Source: Eubacteriales bacterium (GTDB taxonomy: Bacteria > Bacillota > Clostridia > Oscillospirales > Butyricicoccaceae). From it: DNA of 64,000 nucleotides. The position numbers and the translations under genes were made by a program. The notes beneath the pieces were generated by a model that was not told where the DNA came from, made no database searches, and was given only the letters and a program-made list of their open reading frames with translations. Positions 26,969 to 39,936 of this stretch are shown piece after piece; positions within the stretch are counted from its first letter, which is position 1, and each line of letters starts with the position of its first letter. Where the stretch lies: the NCBI GenBank assembly GCA_030524285.1, contig JAUNGQ010000001.1, positions 124,001 through 188,000 of the forward strand, given 5' to 3'.

Positions 26969-29900
26969 ATGGCAAATGAAGCAACCATCAATGGCGTACA
27001 TGTTCATGACGTACAGTATGGACGTACCACCAGAAAGAGCTTTGCCAGAATACCGGATGTTCTGGAAATGCCGAACCTCATCGAGGTGCAGAAAAAATCA
27101 TATCAGTGGTTCCTGACAGACGGTCTGCGCGAGGTCTTTGATGATGTCGCATGTATCACCGACTATACCGGCAATCTGGAGCTGTCCTTTATCGATTACA
27201 AGCTGGATGATGAGCCGAAGTACAGTGTAGAGGAGTGCAAGGCACGCGATGCAACATATGCATGCCCGCTGCGCGTTCGTATGCGTCTGCGCTACAAGGA
27301 AACCGGTGAGATTAAGGAACAGGAGCTGTTCATGGGCGATTTCCCGCGCATGACCGATTCCGGCACCTTCATTATCAACGGTGCAGAACGTGTTATTGTA
27401 TCCCAGATCGTCCGTTCTCCGGGCGTTTACTATGGCATGACGCTGGACAAGACCGACAAGCCGCTGCTGTCTGCCACCGTGATCCCGTACCGCGGTGCAT
27501 GGCTGGAATATGAGACAGACAGCAATGATGTTTTCTATGTCCGCATCGATAAAAACAGAAAAATCCCGATTACCTCCTTCATCCGTGCCATCGGCGTGGA
27601 AACCGATGCTGAGATTATTGAGATGTTCGGTGAAGACGAGCGCATTCTGGCAACCCTCGACAAGGACCCGTCCAAGACTGTTGAGGAAGCGCTCATTGAA
27701 ATTTACAAAAAGCTCCGCCCGGGCGAACCGCCTACGGTGGATTCCGCACGCAGCCTGCTCAATGCACTGTTCTTCGATACCCGTCGATATGACATTTCCG
27801 CAGTAGGCCGCTATAAGTACAACAAGAAGCTGAATATTGCACGCCGTCTGGTAGGCCATAAGATTTGCGAGACCATTACCGATCCGATGACCGGCGAGGT
27901 GCTGGCAGAGGAAGGCGATGTATGCACGCGCGAGCAGGCAAACAGGATTGCAAGCCGCGGCGTACACGGCACCGTCATTGAGGCAAATGACGGCACCCAT
28001 GTCAAGGTGTTCGGCAATGGCATGGTTGACATGAAGGATTTCGTTTCCTTTAACCCGCAGAAAACGTGCGGTATCAAGGAAAAGGTTCGTTTCGTTGTTC
28101 TGCGTGATCTGCTGGAAAAGGCAGAGGAAGAGGGCAAGACGGAGGACGAGCTGATTGACGACATCAAGGCTGCAAAGGACGATCTGGTCCCGAAGCATAT
28201 TATCGTGGATGATATGCTGGCATCCATCTGCTACCTGCTGGGTCTGGGCCATGATATCGGTACCACCGATGACATTGACCATCTGGGCAACCGCCGCCTG
28301 CGTTGTGTTGGCGAGCTGCTGCAAAACCAGTTCCGCATCGGCTTCTCCCGTATGGAGCGTGTCATCCGCGAGCGTATGACGATTCAGGATCTGGATATCG
28401 TTACCCCGCAGTCCCTGATTAACATCCGTCCGGTAACCGCAGCGATCAAGGAATTCTTTGGTTCTTCTCCGCTGTCCCAGTTCATGGACCAGAACAACCC
28501 ACTGTCTGAACTGACGCATAAGCGCCGTATGTCTGCGCTGGGTCCTGGCGGTCTGTCCCGTGACCGTGCATCCTTTGAAGTGCGAGACGTACACTACAGC
28601 CATTACGGACGTATGTGCCCGATTGAGACACCAGAAGGTCCGAACATCGGCCTGATCTCCTATCTGGCAACCTATGCGCGTATCAATGATTTCGGCTTTG
28701 TTGAAGCGCCGTACCGTTTTATCGACAAGAAAACTGGACGTGTGCTGGATGAAGTGCATTATATGACCGCAGATGTCGAGGATGAATATACCATTTGTCA
28801 GGCATATGAGCCGCTGGATGAAAACGGCTGTCTGGCAAATCAGCGTATTACCTGCCGTTGCCGTGAAGAAATCGTCGAGGTTGACCGTCAGGATGTTGAC
28901 CTGATGGACGTATCCCCGCGTATGATGGTATCGGTTGCAACGGCAATGATTCCGTTCCTGGAGCACGATGACGCAAACCGTGCGCTGATGGGCGCGAACA
29001 TGCAGCGTCAGGCAGTGCCGCTGCTCAAGACCGAATCCCCGGCTGTCGGCACCGGTATGGAATACAAGGCATGTGTTGACTCCGGCATTGTTCCGCTGGC
29101 TGAGGGCGACGGTACCGTTACCCGTGTTACGGCACGTGAGGTTGTTGTCAACTATGATACGATGGGTGAAAAGACCTATCACCTGACCAAGTTCCTGCGT
29201 TCCAACCAGTCTACCTGTATCAACCAGCGTCCGATTGTCAATCTGGGCGAGCGCGTGAAGAAGGGCGATGTACTGGCTGACGGCCCGGCTACCTGCAATG
29301 GCGAGGTTGCATTGGGTAAAAATGCCCTCATTGGCTTCATGACCTGGGAAGGCTATAACTACGAGGATGCTGTACTGCTGAACGAGCGTCTGGTTCGTGA
29401 TGACGTATACACCTCTATCCACATTGAAGAATATGAATCCGAATCCCGCGATACCAAGCTGGGACCGGAGGAAATTACCCGCGATATTCCGAACGTCGGC
29501 GAGGACGCACTGCGTGATTTGGACGAGCGCGGCATCATCCGTATTGGCGCTGAGGTTCATTCCGGTGATATTCTGGTTGGTAAGGTTACCCCGAAGGGTG
29601 AGACGGAACTGACCGCAGAAGAACGCCTGCTGCGTGCGATCTTCGGCGAGAAGGCGCGTGAAGTGCGTGATACCTCCCTGCGTGCACCGCACGGCGAGGC
29701 TGGTATCGTTGTGGACGTCAAGGTATTTACCCGTGAGGCTGGCGACGACATGTCTCCTGGTGTCAACATGACGGTCCGTGTTTATATTGCACAGAAGAGA
29801 AAGATTTCCGTAGGTGACAAGATGGCAGGCCGTCACGGCAACAAGGGTGTCGTTTCCCGCATCCTGCCGCAGGAGGATATGCCGTTCCTGGAGGATGGCA

Positions 29901-30727
29901 CACCGCTGGATATCGTTTTGAACCCGCTGGGCGTACCGTCCCGAATGAATATCGGACAGGTGCTGGAGGTGCATCTGGGCTATGCTGCTATGAGCATGGG
30001 CTGGAAGATTGCAACACCGGTATTTGACGGCGCAGACGAACAGGACATCGCTGATGCACTGAAGGCTGCCGGCAAGAACCCGAACGGTAAGTCTGTACTG
30101 TATGATGGACGTACCGGCGAGAAATTTGACAACGAAGTAACCGTTGGCTATATGTACTACCTCAAGCTGCATCATCTGGTTGATGATAAGATCCATGCAC
30201 GTTCCACCGGCCCGTACTCCCTGGTTACCCAGCAGCCTCTGGGCGGTAAGGCACAGTTCGGCGGTCAGCGTTTCGGTGAGATGGAAGTTTGGGCGCTGGA
30301 GGCATATGGCGCAGCCTATACGCTGCAGGAAATCCTGACTGTCAAGTCTGACGATATCGTAGGCCGTGTCAAGACCTATGAAGCAATTGTCAAGGGCCAT
30401 AACATTCCGGCAGCAGGCATTCCGGAATCCTTTAAGGTTCTGATTAAGGAATTACAGTCCCTGTGTCTGGATATTCGTGTGCTGGATGAAGCCGGTGAGG
30501 AAATCATCCTGTCCGATGACGATGATGAAACTACCAACTTCAATCAGGTAGAGCGTGAGAACCGCTCCAACGCAACAGAGGCTGAATTTGAAGCCGCTGG
30601 CTTTGGCGTTTCCGATGTAGAAGACGGTGACCATCCGCTGATGGAGGATGAATCCATGGAAGCTGACGATCTGTTTGATGACAGCGATGATATTGATGAT
30701 TTCTATGACGGCGAGATGGAGGAGTAA
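26969..30727 (+). CDS. rpoB: RNA polymerase subunit beta
   Basis: The 1252-residue core enzyme subunit. The rifampicin-binding cluster [18 protein letters not shown] with downstream SALGPGG has no resistance-type substitution at the D516, H526 or S531 positions. The active-site region [10 protein letters not shown] and the [21 protein letters not shown] motif are intact. The C-terminus has an acidic extension rich in Asp/Glu. GGAGTGATGGGA lies before the ATG. rplKAJL does not precede it here. Confidence 0.98.
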
Positions 30728-30729
30728 GC

Positions 30730-34266
<3,537 letters not shown>

Positions 34267-34275
34267 TAAAGTATG

Positions 34276-34311
34276 GAGAGAGATCATGTTGCGGCATGGT
34301 CTCTCTTTTTT
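34276..34311 (+). terminator. terminator of rpoBC
   Basis: GAGAGATCATG/CATGGTCTCTC stem with one G-U pair, 6-nt loop and T6. Confidence 0.88.
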
Positions 34312-34427
34312 CTGATAGGGAAAAAGATTGGTTTTTCTGCATTTTTCGTACAATCTAACAAATGCAAATGTAGCCGGCTTGTGTTATACTGTGACACGGA
34401 AGCCCTTAGAATACGAGGAATAAAATC

Positions 34428-34826
34428 ATGCGGAACGACAGATACTGGAAATACGGCTGTTTTGGTATTGCGGTGATATTATTGCTGTACAGCGTACATA
34501 TTGCACGGCTTGATGCACTGCTGCGCAGATGCTGCAAGAAGACACTTTTTTACAGCTTTTTCGGACAGTATGGACTTTATCTGCTGTTTCTGGTTATGGC
34601 AGCATTCCTGCTGTTTGCTATATGGCAGTGGATTGCCGTGAAGCCGTCCCGCAAGCGGATGCTGCAAACCGGTATTGCAGCAGTCTGTATTTATGCGGCG
34701 CTGGCGCACGGATATCTGCGTTATCATCATAATGTATATATTCATGCGAGCCAATCAGAGCAGAAGCGCTACAACAAGGCTTATGACAAAGGTCTTCTGT
34801 ATGATTTGAAGGGTCTGGTAAAATAA
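34428..34826 (+). CDS. small membrane protein of unknown function
   Basis: The 132-residue protein has three predicted helices (~10-27, ~45-70, ~82-98) and a basic C-terminal tail ending DKGLLYDLKGLVK. I do not recognise a family. ACGAGGAA lies before the ATG. It sits alone between the rpoC terminator and the str cluster, and its codon use resembles its neighbours. Confidence 0.55.
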   Translation: MRNDRYWKYGCFGIAVILLLYSVHIARLDALLRRCCKKTLFYSFFGQYGLYLLFLVMAAFLLFAIWQWIAVKPSRKRMLQTGIAAVCIYAALAHGYLRYHHNVYIHASQSEQKRYNKAYDKGLLYDLKGLVK

Positions 34827-34948
34827 CCATGTGCAGGACCGGAAGCTGCCGCCTGCAAACGGCTGAGAAGAAAAAACGTATGTAACACAGAGATTTTTTT
34901 CCTGTTTGTACAAAATTATGTATAAAACCCGTGAAAACGGATATCCTG

Positions 34949-35038
34949 TATAATGCTTTGTAAAAACGAAGAAAAAAAGATTGACAGGAGGAAGTTTATC
35001 ATGTAAAATAAACGGGTATGCAATAAGGAGGTATTTCT
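34949..35038 (+). promoter_or_regulatory. leader of the str cluster with an AUG-UAA start-stop frame
   Basis: TATAAT at 34949-34954 (no clear -35) is followed by AGGAGG (34986-34991) and, 9 bp later, ATG immediately followed by TAA (35001-35006). A second minimal frame, ATG-CAA-TAA, lies at 35018-35026; its stop overlaps the AGGAGG of the next gene. A ribosome would be expected to bind and stop at once. Confidence 0.45.
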
Positions 35039-35281
35039 ATGCTCTCACAGCTGGCTTCGTCGGCAAAGGTTGTCGGCGTAAAGCAGTCCAAAAAAGTCAT
35101 CCGTGAAGGCGGTGCAAAATCAGTATTCATTGCTGCGGACGCAGAGCGTCGGATTACCGGACCGATTTACGAATTGTGTGAACAACACAATATTGAGGTG
35201 ACAGAGGTTCCTTCGATGAAGGAGCTTGGCGGCGCAGTCGGCATCGCAGTCGGCGCGGCTGTTGTCACAATCCTCGCTTGA
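35039..35281 (+). CDS. L7Ae-family ribosome-associated protein
   Basis: The 80-residue protein matches the bacterial YbxF/L7Ae-like proteins that bind kink-turn RNA, with GAKSVFIAADAERR and the ligand helix VPSMKELGGAVG. Its place between rpoC and rpsL is conserved in Firmicutes. AAGGAGG lies 7 bases before the ATG. Confidence 0.88.
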   Translation: MLSQLASSAKVVGVKQSKKVIREGGAKSVFIAADAERRITGPIYELCEQHNIEVTEVPSMKELGGAVGIAVGAAVVTILA

Positions 35282-35305
35282 TTTTAACGGGACAAGCATT
35301 TCCCG

Positions 35306-35878
35306 CTGAAATAAATCTATTCAATCTTTTGAAGGAGGTGCAAGTTAAATGCCAACCTTTAACCAGCTTGTACGCAAGGGCAGAAAGGAAACAGAATATA
35401 AGTCCACTGCTCCGGCTCTGCAGGTAGGCCTGAACTCTCTGAAGAAGAAGGCAACCAGCCAGCCGTCCCCGCAGAAGAGAGGCGTCTGCACAACTGTCAA
35501 GACCATGACACCGAAGAAGCCGAACTCTGCACTGCGTAAGGTCGCTCGTGTTAAGCTGACCAATGGTATGGAAGTATCCGCTTATATTCCGGGCATCGGC
35601 CATAACCTGCAGGAGCACTCTGTAGTAATGGTACGTGGCGGTCGTGTAAAGGATCTTCCAGGTGTTCGTTACCACATCATCCGCGGCTCTCTGGATACTC
35701 AGGGTGTTGCAAACCGTCATCAGGCTCGTTCCAAGTACGGCGCAAAGCGTCCGAAGCCGGGCAAGTAAGTCTGTATTTTTCAACCCACATCAACCCGTGC
35801 GTTTGACTTGAACACAGAAACTCAAGCAAAGCAGAAAAAAAGCTTTGTCCTGAGCGCGTTTGAATAGATTTATTTCAG
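35306..35878. repeat. perfect 19-bp inverted repeat enclosing rpsL
   Basis: The left arm at 35306-35324 is CTGAAATAAATCTATTCAA and the right arm at 35860-35878 is its exact reverse complement. Flanking bases do not pair, so the match is exactly 19 bp. The arms lie in the untranslated regions on either side of rpsL, which is wholly enclosed (span 573 bp). A small CGGGA/TCCCG hairpin (35288-35305) abuts the left arm. In RNA the arms could form a long-range duplex. Confidence 0.85.
35349..35768 (+). CDS. rpsL: 30S ribosomal protein S12
   Basis: The 139-residue decoding-site protein has wild-type-looking [14 protein letters not shown] and [25 protein letters not shown] segments, with no obvious streptomycin-resistance change. 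AAGGAGGTG lies 8-9 bases before the ATG, seven bases after the left arm of the inverted repeat. Confidence 0.98.
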
Positions 35879-35962
35879 ACACCTCGGACAGGCGATGACA
35901 AAAGTCAGGGGTGGCTTTTGAAGTACCTATGAAATCATTTTTTTGTGAAGGAGGGAAGTATC
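35769..35962 (+). promoter_or_regulatory. rpsL-rpsG intergenic region with several small stems
   Basis: The 194-bp gap is long for this operon. It holds weak stems CTTGA/TCAAG (35807-35826), CAAAGC/GCTTTG (35827-35847), the right arm of the 19-bp repeat, and CAAAAG/CTTTTG (35899-35920). None is a convincing terminator. S7-dependent regulation or RNA processing is possible. Confidence 0.35.
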
Positions 35963-36433
35963 GTGCCAAGAAGAGGTTTTGTTCCCAAGAGAGAGGTTCT
36001 TGCAGATCCGCTCTATGGTTCCCAGCTTGTTACCAAGCTGATTAACTCGATCATGCTCGATGGTAAAAAGGGCGTAGCTCAGAAGGTTGTTTACGGTGCT
36101 TTTGACATCGTGAAGGAGAAGACTGGCCGCGATCCGTTAGAAGTATTTACCGAGGCTATGGACAACATCATGCCGTCTCTGGAGGTTAAGGCTCGCCGTG
36201 TAGGCGGCGCTACCTACCAGGTTCCGATGGAAGTTCGTCCGGAGAGACGTCAGACTCTGGGTCTGCGTTGGATCACCAAGTATTCCCGCGCTCGTTCCGA
36301 GAGAACGATGGCTGAGAGACTGGCTGGCGAAATCATGGATGCTGTGAACAATCTGGGCGGCGCTGTTAAGAAGCGTGAAGATACCCATAAGATGGCAGAG
36401 GCTAACAAGGCATTTGCTCATTACAGATACTAA
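35963..36433 (+). CDS. rpsG: 30S ribosomal protein S7
   Basis: The 156-residue 16S rRNA-binding assembly protein begins [20 protein letters not shown]. The start is GTG, preceded by GAAGGAGGG; an in-frame ATG six codons upstream overlaps that site and would add non-family residues. Length matches the family. Confidence 0.97.
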
Positions 36434-36466
36434 TTTCTGAGGGTAACTTTACGAAAGGAGATTAAC

Positions 36467-38551
36467 ATGCCAAGAGAGTTTACACTGGAAAAAACAAGAA
36501 ATATTGGTATTATGGCGCACATCGACGCTGGTAAGACGACCACCACAGAGCGTATTCTGTATTACACCGGACGTACGCACAAGATTGGTGAGACGCACGA
36601 AGGCGCATCCGTCATGGACTGGATGGCGCAGGAAAAAGAGCGCGGTATTACCATTACTTCTGCTGCTACCACCTGTAAGTGGAAGGAGCATAGAATCAAT
36701 ATCATCGACACCCCGGGCCACGTTGACTTTACCGTAGAAGTACAGCGTTCCCTGCGTGTCCTTGACGGCTCCGTTTGCGTATTCTGCGCAAAGGGCGGCG
36801 TTGAACCGCAGTCTGAAACGGTATGGCATCAGGCAGACGATTATAAGGTTCCGCGTATGGCATTCGTCAACAAGATGGATATCATGGGCGCTAACTTCTA
36901 TAACGTTGTCCAGATGATGAAGGATCGCCTGAAGTGCGTTCCGGTTCCGATTCAGTTGCCGATCGGCGCTGAAAGCGAATTCGTTGGTATCATCGACCTG
37001 ATGACCATGCGCGCAGAGGTTTATTATGATGACCTCGGCAAGGATATCCGCGATGAGGATATTCCGGCTGACATGCTGGAGAAGGCGCAGCAGTACCATG
37101 ATGAAATGGTAGAGCTGATCTGCGATACCGATGAAGAGCTGATGATGATGTACCTGGAGGGCGAAGAGATTCCGGTAGAGGATCTGAAAAAAGCGCTGCG
37201 TCAGGCTACCATCGACAACAAGCTGGTTCCGGTACTGTGTGGTACCGCTTACCGCAATAAGGGCGTTCAGATGCTGCTGGATGCTATTATTGATTACATG
37301 CCGGCTCCGGTTGACATCCCGCCGATTAAGGGTGTTAACCCGGATACCGATGAAGAGGATGAGCGTCCGTCTGACGATAACGCACCGTTCTCTGCACTGG
37401 CATTTAAGATTGCTACCGATCCGTTCGTTGGCCGTCTGTCCTTCTTCCGCGTATATTCCGGTACGTTGGATGCCGGTACTTCCGTACTCAATGCAACCAA
37501 GGATAAGCGCGAGAGAATGGGCCGTATCCTGCTGATGCATGCAAACCATCGAGAAGATATCACCAAGGTATACTCCGGCGATATTGCTGCTGCAGTAGGC
37601 TTTAAGAACACGACCACCGGCGATACGCTGTGTGACGAGAAGTATCCGATCATTCTGGAATCCATGAACTTCCCGGATCCGGTTATCCGCGTTGCCATCG
37701 AGCCGAAGACCAAGGCAGGTCAGGAAAAGATGGGTATCGCGCTGGCTAAGCTGGCAGAAGAAGACCCGACCTTTAAGACTTATACCGATGACGAAACCGG
37801 TCAGACCATTATCGCCGGCATGGGCGAGCTGCATCTGGAAATCATCGTTGACCGTCTGCTGCGTGAGTTCAAGGTAGAGGCTAACGTAGGTAAGCCGCAG
37901 GTAGCTTATAAGGAAACCATTCGCCGTAAGGCTGATGTGGAGACCAAGTACGCTCGTCAGTCTGGTGGTAAGGGCCAGTATGGTCATGTTAAGATCATTC
38001 TGGAGCCGAACGAGCCGGGCAAGGGCTACGAGTTTGTCAACGCTGTTGTCGGCGGCGCTATTCCGAAGGAATACATCGAGCCGGTTAATCAGGGTATTCA
38101 GGGTGCAATGCAGAATGGCGTTATGGCTGGCTACCCGGTAGTTGACTGCAAGGTTACTCTGTATGATGGATCCTATCATGAAGTCGACTCCTCTGAAATG
38201 GCATTTAAGATTGCCGGTTCTATGGCATTCAAGGAGGCTATGAAGAAGGCTGATCCGGTTCTGACCGAGCCGATCATGCAGGTTGACGTTATGGTTCCGG
38301 AGGAGTATATGGGCGACGTTATCGGCGACCTGAACTCCCGTCGTGGCCAGATTCAGGGTATGGAGCCGCGTGGCGCTGTACAGGCAATTTCCGCAGCAGT
38401 TCCGCTGTCTGAAATGTTTGGTTACGCTACCGACCTGCGTTCCCGTTCTCAGGGCCGTGGCCAGTACGTTATGCAGCCGAGCCACTATGCTGAAATCCCG
38501 AAGAGCATTGCCGATAAGATTATTGCAACCCGCAATAAGACACAGGGCTAA
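36467..38551 (+). CDS. fusA: elongation factor G
   Basis: The 694-residue translocase GTPase has G1 [16 protein letters not shown]2/switch [12 protein letters not shown]3 DTPGHVDF and G4 NKMD, then the usual domains II-V. AAAGGAG precedes the ATG, 33 bp after rpsG. Confidence 0.98.
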
Positions 38552-38576
38552 TCTGCAAATTATAAATGAAATACGA

Positions 38577-38608
38577 CAGGCTCCCTTCTGGATACGGGAG
38601 GGAGCCTG
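38577..38608 (+). terminator. fusA-tuf intergenic hairpin
   Basis: CAGGCTCCCT/AGGGAGCCTG 10-bp stem with a 12-nt loop. No T-run follows, so it may only partly terminate or may stabilise the fusA mRNA end. Confidence 0.5.
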
Positions 38609-38655
38609 CTGAAAAAATTCCGTTGTATTTCCCGGCGGAATCTATCAGGTTATGC

Positions 38656-38684
38656 TTGCAATTTTGTATGCATTATTATAAAAT
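38656..38684 (+). promoter_or_regulatory. probable tuf promoter
   Basis: TTGCAA, 17 bp and TAAAAT, 50 bp upstream of the tuf start codon. It suggests tuf can be transcribed apart from fusA. Confidence 0.5.
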
Positions 38685-38733
38685 AAAGTCTGTAAATGAC
38701 TGTGTTGTTATTATATGAAGGAGGATACCAACA

Positions 38734-39936
38734 ATGGCAAAGGAAAAGTACGTAAGAGACCTGCCTCATGTTAACATTGGTACGATCGGCCACGTTGACC
38801 ATGGCAAGACCACCCTTACCGCTGCAATCACCAAGGTACTGGCTATGCAGGGCCAGGCTGAGGTTCAGAAGTATGATGAAATCGACAAGGCTCCGGAAGA
38901 GAAGGAGCGCGGCATCACTATCAACACCGCACACGTAGAGTACAAGACCAAGAACCGTCACTACGCACACGTTGACTGCCCGGGCCATGCTGACTATGTA
39001 AAGAACATGATCACCGGCGCTGCTCAGATGGACGGCGCAATCCTGGTAGTATCTTCTGCTGACGGCCCGATGCCGCAGACTCGTGAGCATATCCTGCTGG
39101 CTCGTCAGGTAGGCGTACCGTACATCGTTGTTTTCATGAACAAGGTTGATCAGGTAGATGACGAGGAGCTGCTGGATCTGGTAGAGATGGAAATCCGTGA
39201 GCTGCTGTCTGACTACGAGTTCCCGGGCGATGACATCCCGATTATCCGTGGTACCGCTCTGGGCGTTCTGGAGTGCGATTCCGAAGATCCGTCTGCACCG
39301 GAATACGAGTGCATCCGTGAACTGATGGACGCTGTTGACGAATACATTCCGACTCCGGAGCGTAAGGCTGACCAGCCGTTCCTGATGCCGGTCGAGGACG
39401 TATTCTCTATCACCGGTCGTGGTACCGTAGCTACCGGTCGTGTAGAGCGTGGCCAGGTTAAGATGGGCGAGGAAGTTGAAATCGTTGGTCTGATGGATGC
39501 TCCGCGCAAGACCGTTGTAACCGGTATCGAAATGTTCCGCAAGCTGCTGGATTACGCTGAAGCTGGCGACAACATCGGCACCCTGCTGCGTGGTATTCAG
39601 AAGAACGAGGTAGAGCGTGGCCAGGTTATCGCTAAGCCGGGCTCCATCCATCCGCATACCAAGTTCAAGGGTCAGGTATACGTTCTGAAGAAGGAAGAAG
39701 GCGGCCGCCATACTCCGTTCTTCAACAACTACCGTCCGCAGTTCTACTTCCGTACCACCGACGTTACTGGTGTTATCTCCCTGCCGGAAGGCACTGAGAT
39801 GTGCATGCCGGGCGATAACGTTGATATGGACGTAGCTCTGATCACCCCGATCGCTATCGAGAAGGGCCTGCGTTTCGCTATCCGTGAGGGTGGCCGTACC
39901 GTTGGTTCTGGCGTTGTTACCGAGATCTACGAATAA
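38734..39936 (+). CDS. tuf: elongation factor Tu
   Basis: The 400-residue GTPase delivers aminoacyl-tRNA. It has [31 protein letters not shown] and NKVD. The C-terminal [17 protein letters not shown] keeps the residues known to matter for kirromycin sensitivity. AAGGAGG precedes the ATG. Confidence 0.98.

Follow-up and report, generated by a model that had tools for sequence, protein, structure and literature searches.

In Escherichia coli, ribosomal protein S7 autoregulates the str operon at the intercistronic region between the S12 and S7 cistrons, and rpsL, which encodes S12, is also affected by retroregulation; a 2024 review describes the uS7 structure of the E. coli str operon as not obviously conserved (PMC10931766). 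Further regulatory RNAs of the same operon have been described in other lineages, including the rpsL-leaders, which are attenuators located upstream of rpsL and without a common structure (PMC2965389), and the Pelagibacter rpsL motif, which likewise lies upstream of rpsL (PMC2704228). In Staphylococcus aureus, pairing between the 5′ and 3′ UTRs of icaR at the Shine-Dalgarno (SD) region and cutting by RNase III have been demonstrated (PMC3868564).

Here, we describe a Clostridia locus that resembles each of these systems in part. As in E. coli, a structured RNA is found in the rpsL-rpsG gap (PMC10931766), but a linear 16S-like sequence was not detected in the Clostridia leader (none of seven leader segments, compared with one 16S gene, rose above shuffled queries), S7 binding is only putative, and retroregulation in E. 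coli works by mRNA destabilisation. As in icaR, downstream untranslated RNA would pair with its own gene's leader across the ORF, whereas here the setting is a polycistronic ribosomal operon and the pairing is predicted only (PMC3868564). The rpsL-leaders and the Pelagibacter motif differ from the RNA considered here in that neither lies in the Clostridia rpsL-rpsG gap (PMC2965389, PMC2704228). With the leaders of Eckert et al. 2020 the RNA shares covariation, restriction to a lineage and a place immediately before a ribosomal protein gene; unlike them, it has no Rfam family match, and rpsG occurs 0 times in that paper (PMC7247131).

The rpsL region and its inverted repeat

The window (the whole stretch of DNA analysed, 64,000 nucleotides from a Eubacteriales bacterium of the Butyricicoccaceae) contains, on the plus strand, an 80-aa L7Ae-family gene (35039-35281; Pfam PF01248, E 4.7e-12) directly upstream of rpsL (S12; 35349-35768; PF00164), and then rpsG (S7; 35963-36433, GTG start; PF00177). 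Whereas these three ORFs were identified with Pfam, the names rpoB, rpoC, fusA and tuf come from a reading of the ORFs. A 132-aa ORF (34428-34826) without a Pfam match at E 0.001 separates the L7Ae-family gene from the ORF taken to be rpoC. A promoter-like site occurs at 34981-35009, the frequency of such sites being no higher than in shuffles. On the minus strand, very long open frames lie antisense to the presumptive rpoB (27098-30400, 1100 codons) and fusA (36449-38485, 678 codons), perhaps as an effect of codon usage. At the stop of rpsL, a weak stem resembling a terminator (35758-35773) precedes a T-rich stretch and could be relevant to rpsL mRNA ends; the region has three such sites, with 1.9 expected.

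As the original prediction had it, rpsL is enclosed by a perfect 19-bp inverted repeat: the left arm, CTGAAATAAATCTATTCAA (35306-35324, +), lies 5′ of the gene, the right arm (35860-35878, +) lies 3′ of it and is the exact reverse complement (19/19 positions, 100% complementary), and the 535-nt spacer holds the whole rpsL ORF. The small hairpin that it had placed beside the left arm (CGGG..CCCG) is present too. Its view that the repeat is far beyond chance stands for the window itself, where this is the sole perfect inverted repeat of at least 13 bp with a spacer of 100-1000 nt and where 0/200 dinucleotide shuffles gave one of 19 bp or more at such spacing (the longest, 17 bp, appeared in two), but does not carry over to the search as a whole, since the repeat was drawn from a scan over many windows with a chance rate that is not negligible. 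We infer that both arms lie in one transcript.

The perfect inverted repeat, and nothing else, speaks for a DNA-level element, that is, an invertible segment or paired protein-binding sites. We consider this very improbable, because rpsL has one and the same orientation relative to rpsG in 11/11 congeners and because further copies of the arms are absent from the window's genome (G000; 1.56 Mb, 73% complete). No additional copy was found in the window at up to three mismatches either. DNA inversion, which had been offered earlier as an alternative, was rejected on the constant orientation, and a dispersed repeated element on the lack of another copy in the genome.

A candidate S7 leader before rpsG

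The right arm forms the apex of a hairpin in a conserved RNA before rpsG, a point missed in the original prediction. The features of this leader are all on the plus strand. Its 5′ part includes CGUUUGACUUG(AA)CAC (35800-35815), which lies 31 nt past the rpsL stop codon and is the 3′ strand of a possible long-range helix (HB; see below). It is followed by the P2 hairpin (35826-35847; GCAAAGC...GCUUUG), read from the sequence and represented by its motif pair in 40/42 loci of six genera, and by the P3 hairpin (35848-35890), recovered by RNAalifold and a motif survey, whose apex is the right arm. The 3′ module (35885-35965) matches our covariance model R1 with 71.2 bits and includes the P4 hairpin (35899-35920) and AGUACCUAUGAAAUCAU (35922-35938); the rpsG SD lies at 35947-35955 and the GTG start at 35963.

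This covarying leader is the firmest result of the analysis, firmer than the long-range duplex. R1, which represents the 3′ module with 80 positions and 14 pairs, matches 74/74 sources searched, training sequences included, and alignment A1, which holds 49 of 67 distinct reference stretches (18 were left out to limit size), shows AGUACC and GGAGGG without variation in every row. In an alignment fitted to R1, which hence leans towards the structure, all seven P4 pairs show changes on both sides (68 distinct rows), and the whole-structure covariation score is 0.402 compared with a shuffled mean of 0.136, a value reached by 0/500 shuffles; the score falls to 0.05-0.10 when the partners are slid, and 90.9% of cells are paired as against 75.4% in shuffles. 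R1 matches were found in at least 145/196 Clostridia genomes drawn over the class and in at least 4/149 genomes drawn over the phylum. Of these four, three are members of the class; the match in the remaining one, L112 (E 3.8e-4), has no rpsL or rpsG beside it. Flanks were checked for 29 in-class matches out of the 145 match genomes (9 + 20 picked down the ranking, from the strongest to E 7.8e-4), and in 29/29 the match lies between rpsL and rpsG. Weak second matches occur in two genomes, G249 and G279.

Searched against Rfam 15 at E up to 5, positions 34000-39000 of the window gave two matches only, which fell within genes rather than in the leader and did not reach the gathering score, and at gathering score there were 0 matches in 19 loci; a known RNA family was rejected for the leader because none of these matches is relevant to it. 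No description of a published S7 leader in Clostridia was found in searches of open-licence PMC papers. The leader has two of the properties by which ribosomal-protein leaders are recognised, namely a covarying secondary structure and a place upstream of a ribosomal protein gene, and we regard it as a candidate S7 (rpsG) leader, with S7 as the putative ligand suggested by its position and the E. coli precedent.

Outside the genus, the P3 apex motif AUAGAU is present in the leaders of two genera, g10 and g12, whose 5′ leaders by eye do not contain its full complement (L051 is a near miss), so that the right arm is probably older than the inverted repeat. In some other Clostridia (L126 and L127; UGAUA...UAUCA) the hairpin that immediately precedes the rpsG SD seems longer by eye, and such a variable hairpin could mask the SD there. 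L7Ae-family proteins bind kink-turns, and with an L7Ae-family gene just upstream a kink-turn in the 3′ module was considered by eye: the UGAC...GAGUACC strands of the rpsG leader in other genera bear a loose likeness to one.

Predicted long-range pairing between the two leaders

The left arm belongs to a different element, the rpsL leader, where it sits between a local hairpin (35281-35312, +; AUUUUAaCGGG...CCCGcUGAAAU) and the rpsL SD (GGAGG; 35334-35338, +). The lower stem of this hairpin, AUUUUA/UGAAAU, was read from the sequence and is shorter in the RNAalifold structure of congener 5′ UTRs; the left arm can supply the 3′ side of the hairpin with its first 7 nt. The sample of the genus comprised 12 genomes, of which 11 have the locus, and nine Butyricicoccus-like species among these can form the long-range helix. 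RNAalifold of these nine congeners (5′ UTR plus intergenic region, ORF omitted) recovered, unprompted, two nested helices: HA, formed by the inverted repeat, and HB, in which GUGCAAGUUAAAUG (35338-35351, +), consisting of the last SD base, the spacer and the rpsL start codon, pairs with CGUUUGACUUG(AA)CAC. HA is paired at 18-19/19 positions in 9/11 congeners and HB at 13-14/14 in the same nine; the duplex energies range from -18.1 to -22.4 kcal/mol for HA and from -8.6 to -15.2 kcal/mol for HB.

Folding the two regions jointly gains -13.8 kcal/mol in the nine, compared with -0.3 in g6, -2.0 in g5, -0.1 in g10, -4.5 in g8, -4.1 in g3 and -1.4 in g4; this comparison covered loci with at least 85 nt of 5′ sequence in genera with at least three loci. 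Two loci were left out of the analysis (L030, with a partial rpsL, and L066, a stretch without rpsG). Shuffling the columns of the 5′ UTR gave a mean gain of -3.8 and at best -13.9, and 0/300 shuffles came up to the real gain, which was -15.7 in this arrangement. Once the coding sequence was added to the folds, the mean pair probability of HA was 0.70-0.98 in 8/9 (0.97 in the window's genome; the exception is L004, 0.24) and 0.00 in the two congeners without the helix. HB, by contrast, is probable in 2/9 of these full-length folds only (L006, 0.91; L011, 0.93); its probability is 0.02-0.07 in the other seven and 0.02 in the window's own genome, where both of its strands, found in comparative folds, are unsupported in the full-length fold. 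HA is thus the robust part of the prediction, supported at both arms by sequence, comparative and full-length folds. The folds do not in general predict that the start codon is directly occluded, although the complementarity of HB spans the last SD base, the spacer and the AUG in all nine. In whole-mRNA folds the long-range part amounts to 6.9-17.5 kcal/mol in the nine and 4.2-5.0 kcal/mol in the two without helices; because it is 3.3-10.8 kcal/mol in eight loci of other genera and so overlaps the range of the nine, folding energies alone do not settle HA.

The original prediction had proposed a duplex looping out rpsL and had looked to covariation of the arms in related genomes to bear it out. 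The duplex itself is predicted in 9/11 congeners, and in 8/9 with the coding sequence present, but L012 and L013, a well-supported pair, have neither HA nor HB, and in the 11 congeners HA and HB together covary no more than shuffles do (one double-change pair; 175/500 shuffles as high). The single compensatory change is in HB, an A-U to C-G change in L011, and none was found in HA among the 11. An A-to-C substitution in the rpsL spacer is shared by L009-L011; only L011 has the matching U-to-G, and HB is broken in the other two. In HA, a C-to-U change is kept as G-U in L006, L007 and L011 and an A-to-G change as U-G in L009 and L010; uncompensated mismatches occur in L004 and L005, and the last pair is lost in L009-L011. 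L008 has insertions in both arms, which leave one bulge, and L010 has one insertion in the right arm. Drift alone could suffice for this mixture of pair-keeping and pair-breaking changes.

These substitutions bear on the main rival explanation, according to which the rpsL leader and the rpsG leader are local elements, each conserved on its own account, that happen to be complementary in a single group of species, the duplex having no role. Besides the mixed changes in HA and the covariation at the level of shuffles, it is favoured by the left-versus-right duplex matrix, in which a congener's own right region is the best partner in 2/11 only, by the AUAGAU apex already present in g10 and g12, whose 5′ leaders do not hold its full complement, by the number of windows scanned, and by the stretch before the rpsL SD, which is also largely conserved within g6, a genus without joint-fold gain. 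Both arms have local partners, so that their conservation does not require HA. A chance origin is harder to reconcile with a perfect match of 19 bp, with a joint-fold gain that exceeds 300/300 column shuffles and six other genera, and with HA being favoured in 8/9 full-length folds. On balance, we rate chance complementarity as slightly more probable than a closure of the mRNA over rpsL, short of an even chance.

A third explanation, the main one of the original prediction, that the duplex is an RNase III processing stem serving mainly to be cut and so to part the S12 message from that of S7 and EF-G, would need HA alone, which is the helix favoured in the full-length folds, and has a precedent in the 5′-3′ UTR pairing of icaR in S. 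aureus, an RNase III substrate (PMC3868564). The loss of the helix in two congeners and the lack of covariation in HA argue against it, and we regard it as distinctly unlikely.

A possible closure of the str mRNA over rpsL

Our own explanation, to which we give a probability of about 0.38, is that the mRNA closes over rpsL via HA and that rpsL expression is thereby lowered from downstream. The arms are strands of two different elements of the str-operon mRNA, the rpsL leader and the rpsG leader, and the sequence preceding the rpsL SD is complementary to the P3 apex in the nine Butyricicoccus-like species, so that there the mRNA could close by the 19-pair HA once the intergenic region has been transcribed. 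With the loop closed, the rpsG leader would come to lie next to the rpsL ribosome-binding site, and rpsL expression might then be lowered through hindered initiation (directly, wherever HB forms and covers the start codon) or alternatively through a double-stranded target offered to an RNase. The step at the start codon is the weakest part of this explanation, given that HB is favoured in 2/9 full-length folds.

The closed form would take up the P3 apex and hence compete with the local fold of the rpsG leader. If S7 binds the local fold, the open form would be favoured, and the sign of the effect would be opposite to that of retroregulation in E. coli; because the closed form uses strands of that local fold, an S7 effect could be of either sign. 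A wider scheme, in which an S7 leader widespread in Clostridia and without an Rfam 15 family controls the str operon and, in one group of Butyricicoccus-like species, has had its apex co-opted by the rpsL leader as a switch closing over the entire upstream gene, so that S12 synthesis would be set from downstream by how the S7 leader folds, appears doubtful to us as a whole. A long-range duplex limited to one group of species is plausible, if unproven.

A covarying RNA at the rpsL-rpsG position in many Clostridia makes the question of uS7 control testable there, and the rpsG leader, if confirmed by experiment, would be an addition to the catalogue of ribosomal control RNAs. The long-range closure, if true, would mean that in a ribosomal operon a downstream leader acts on the preceding cistron by base pairing.
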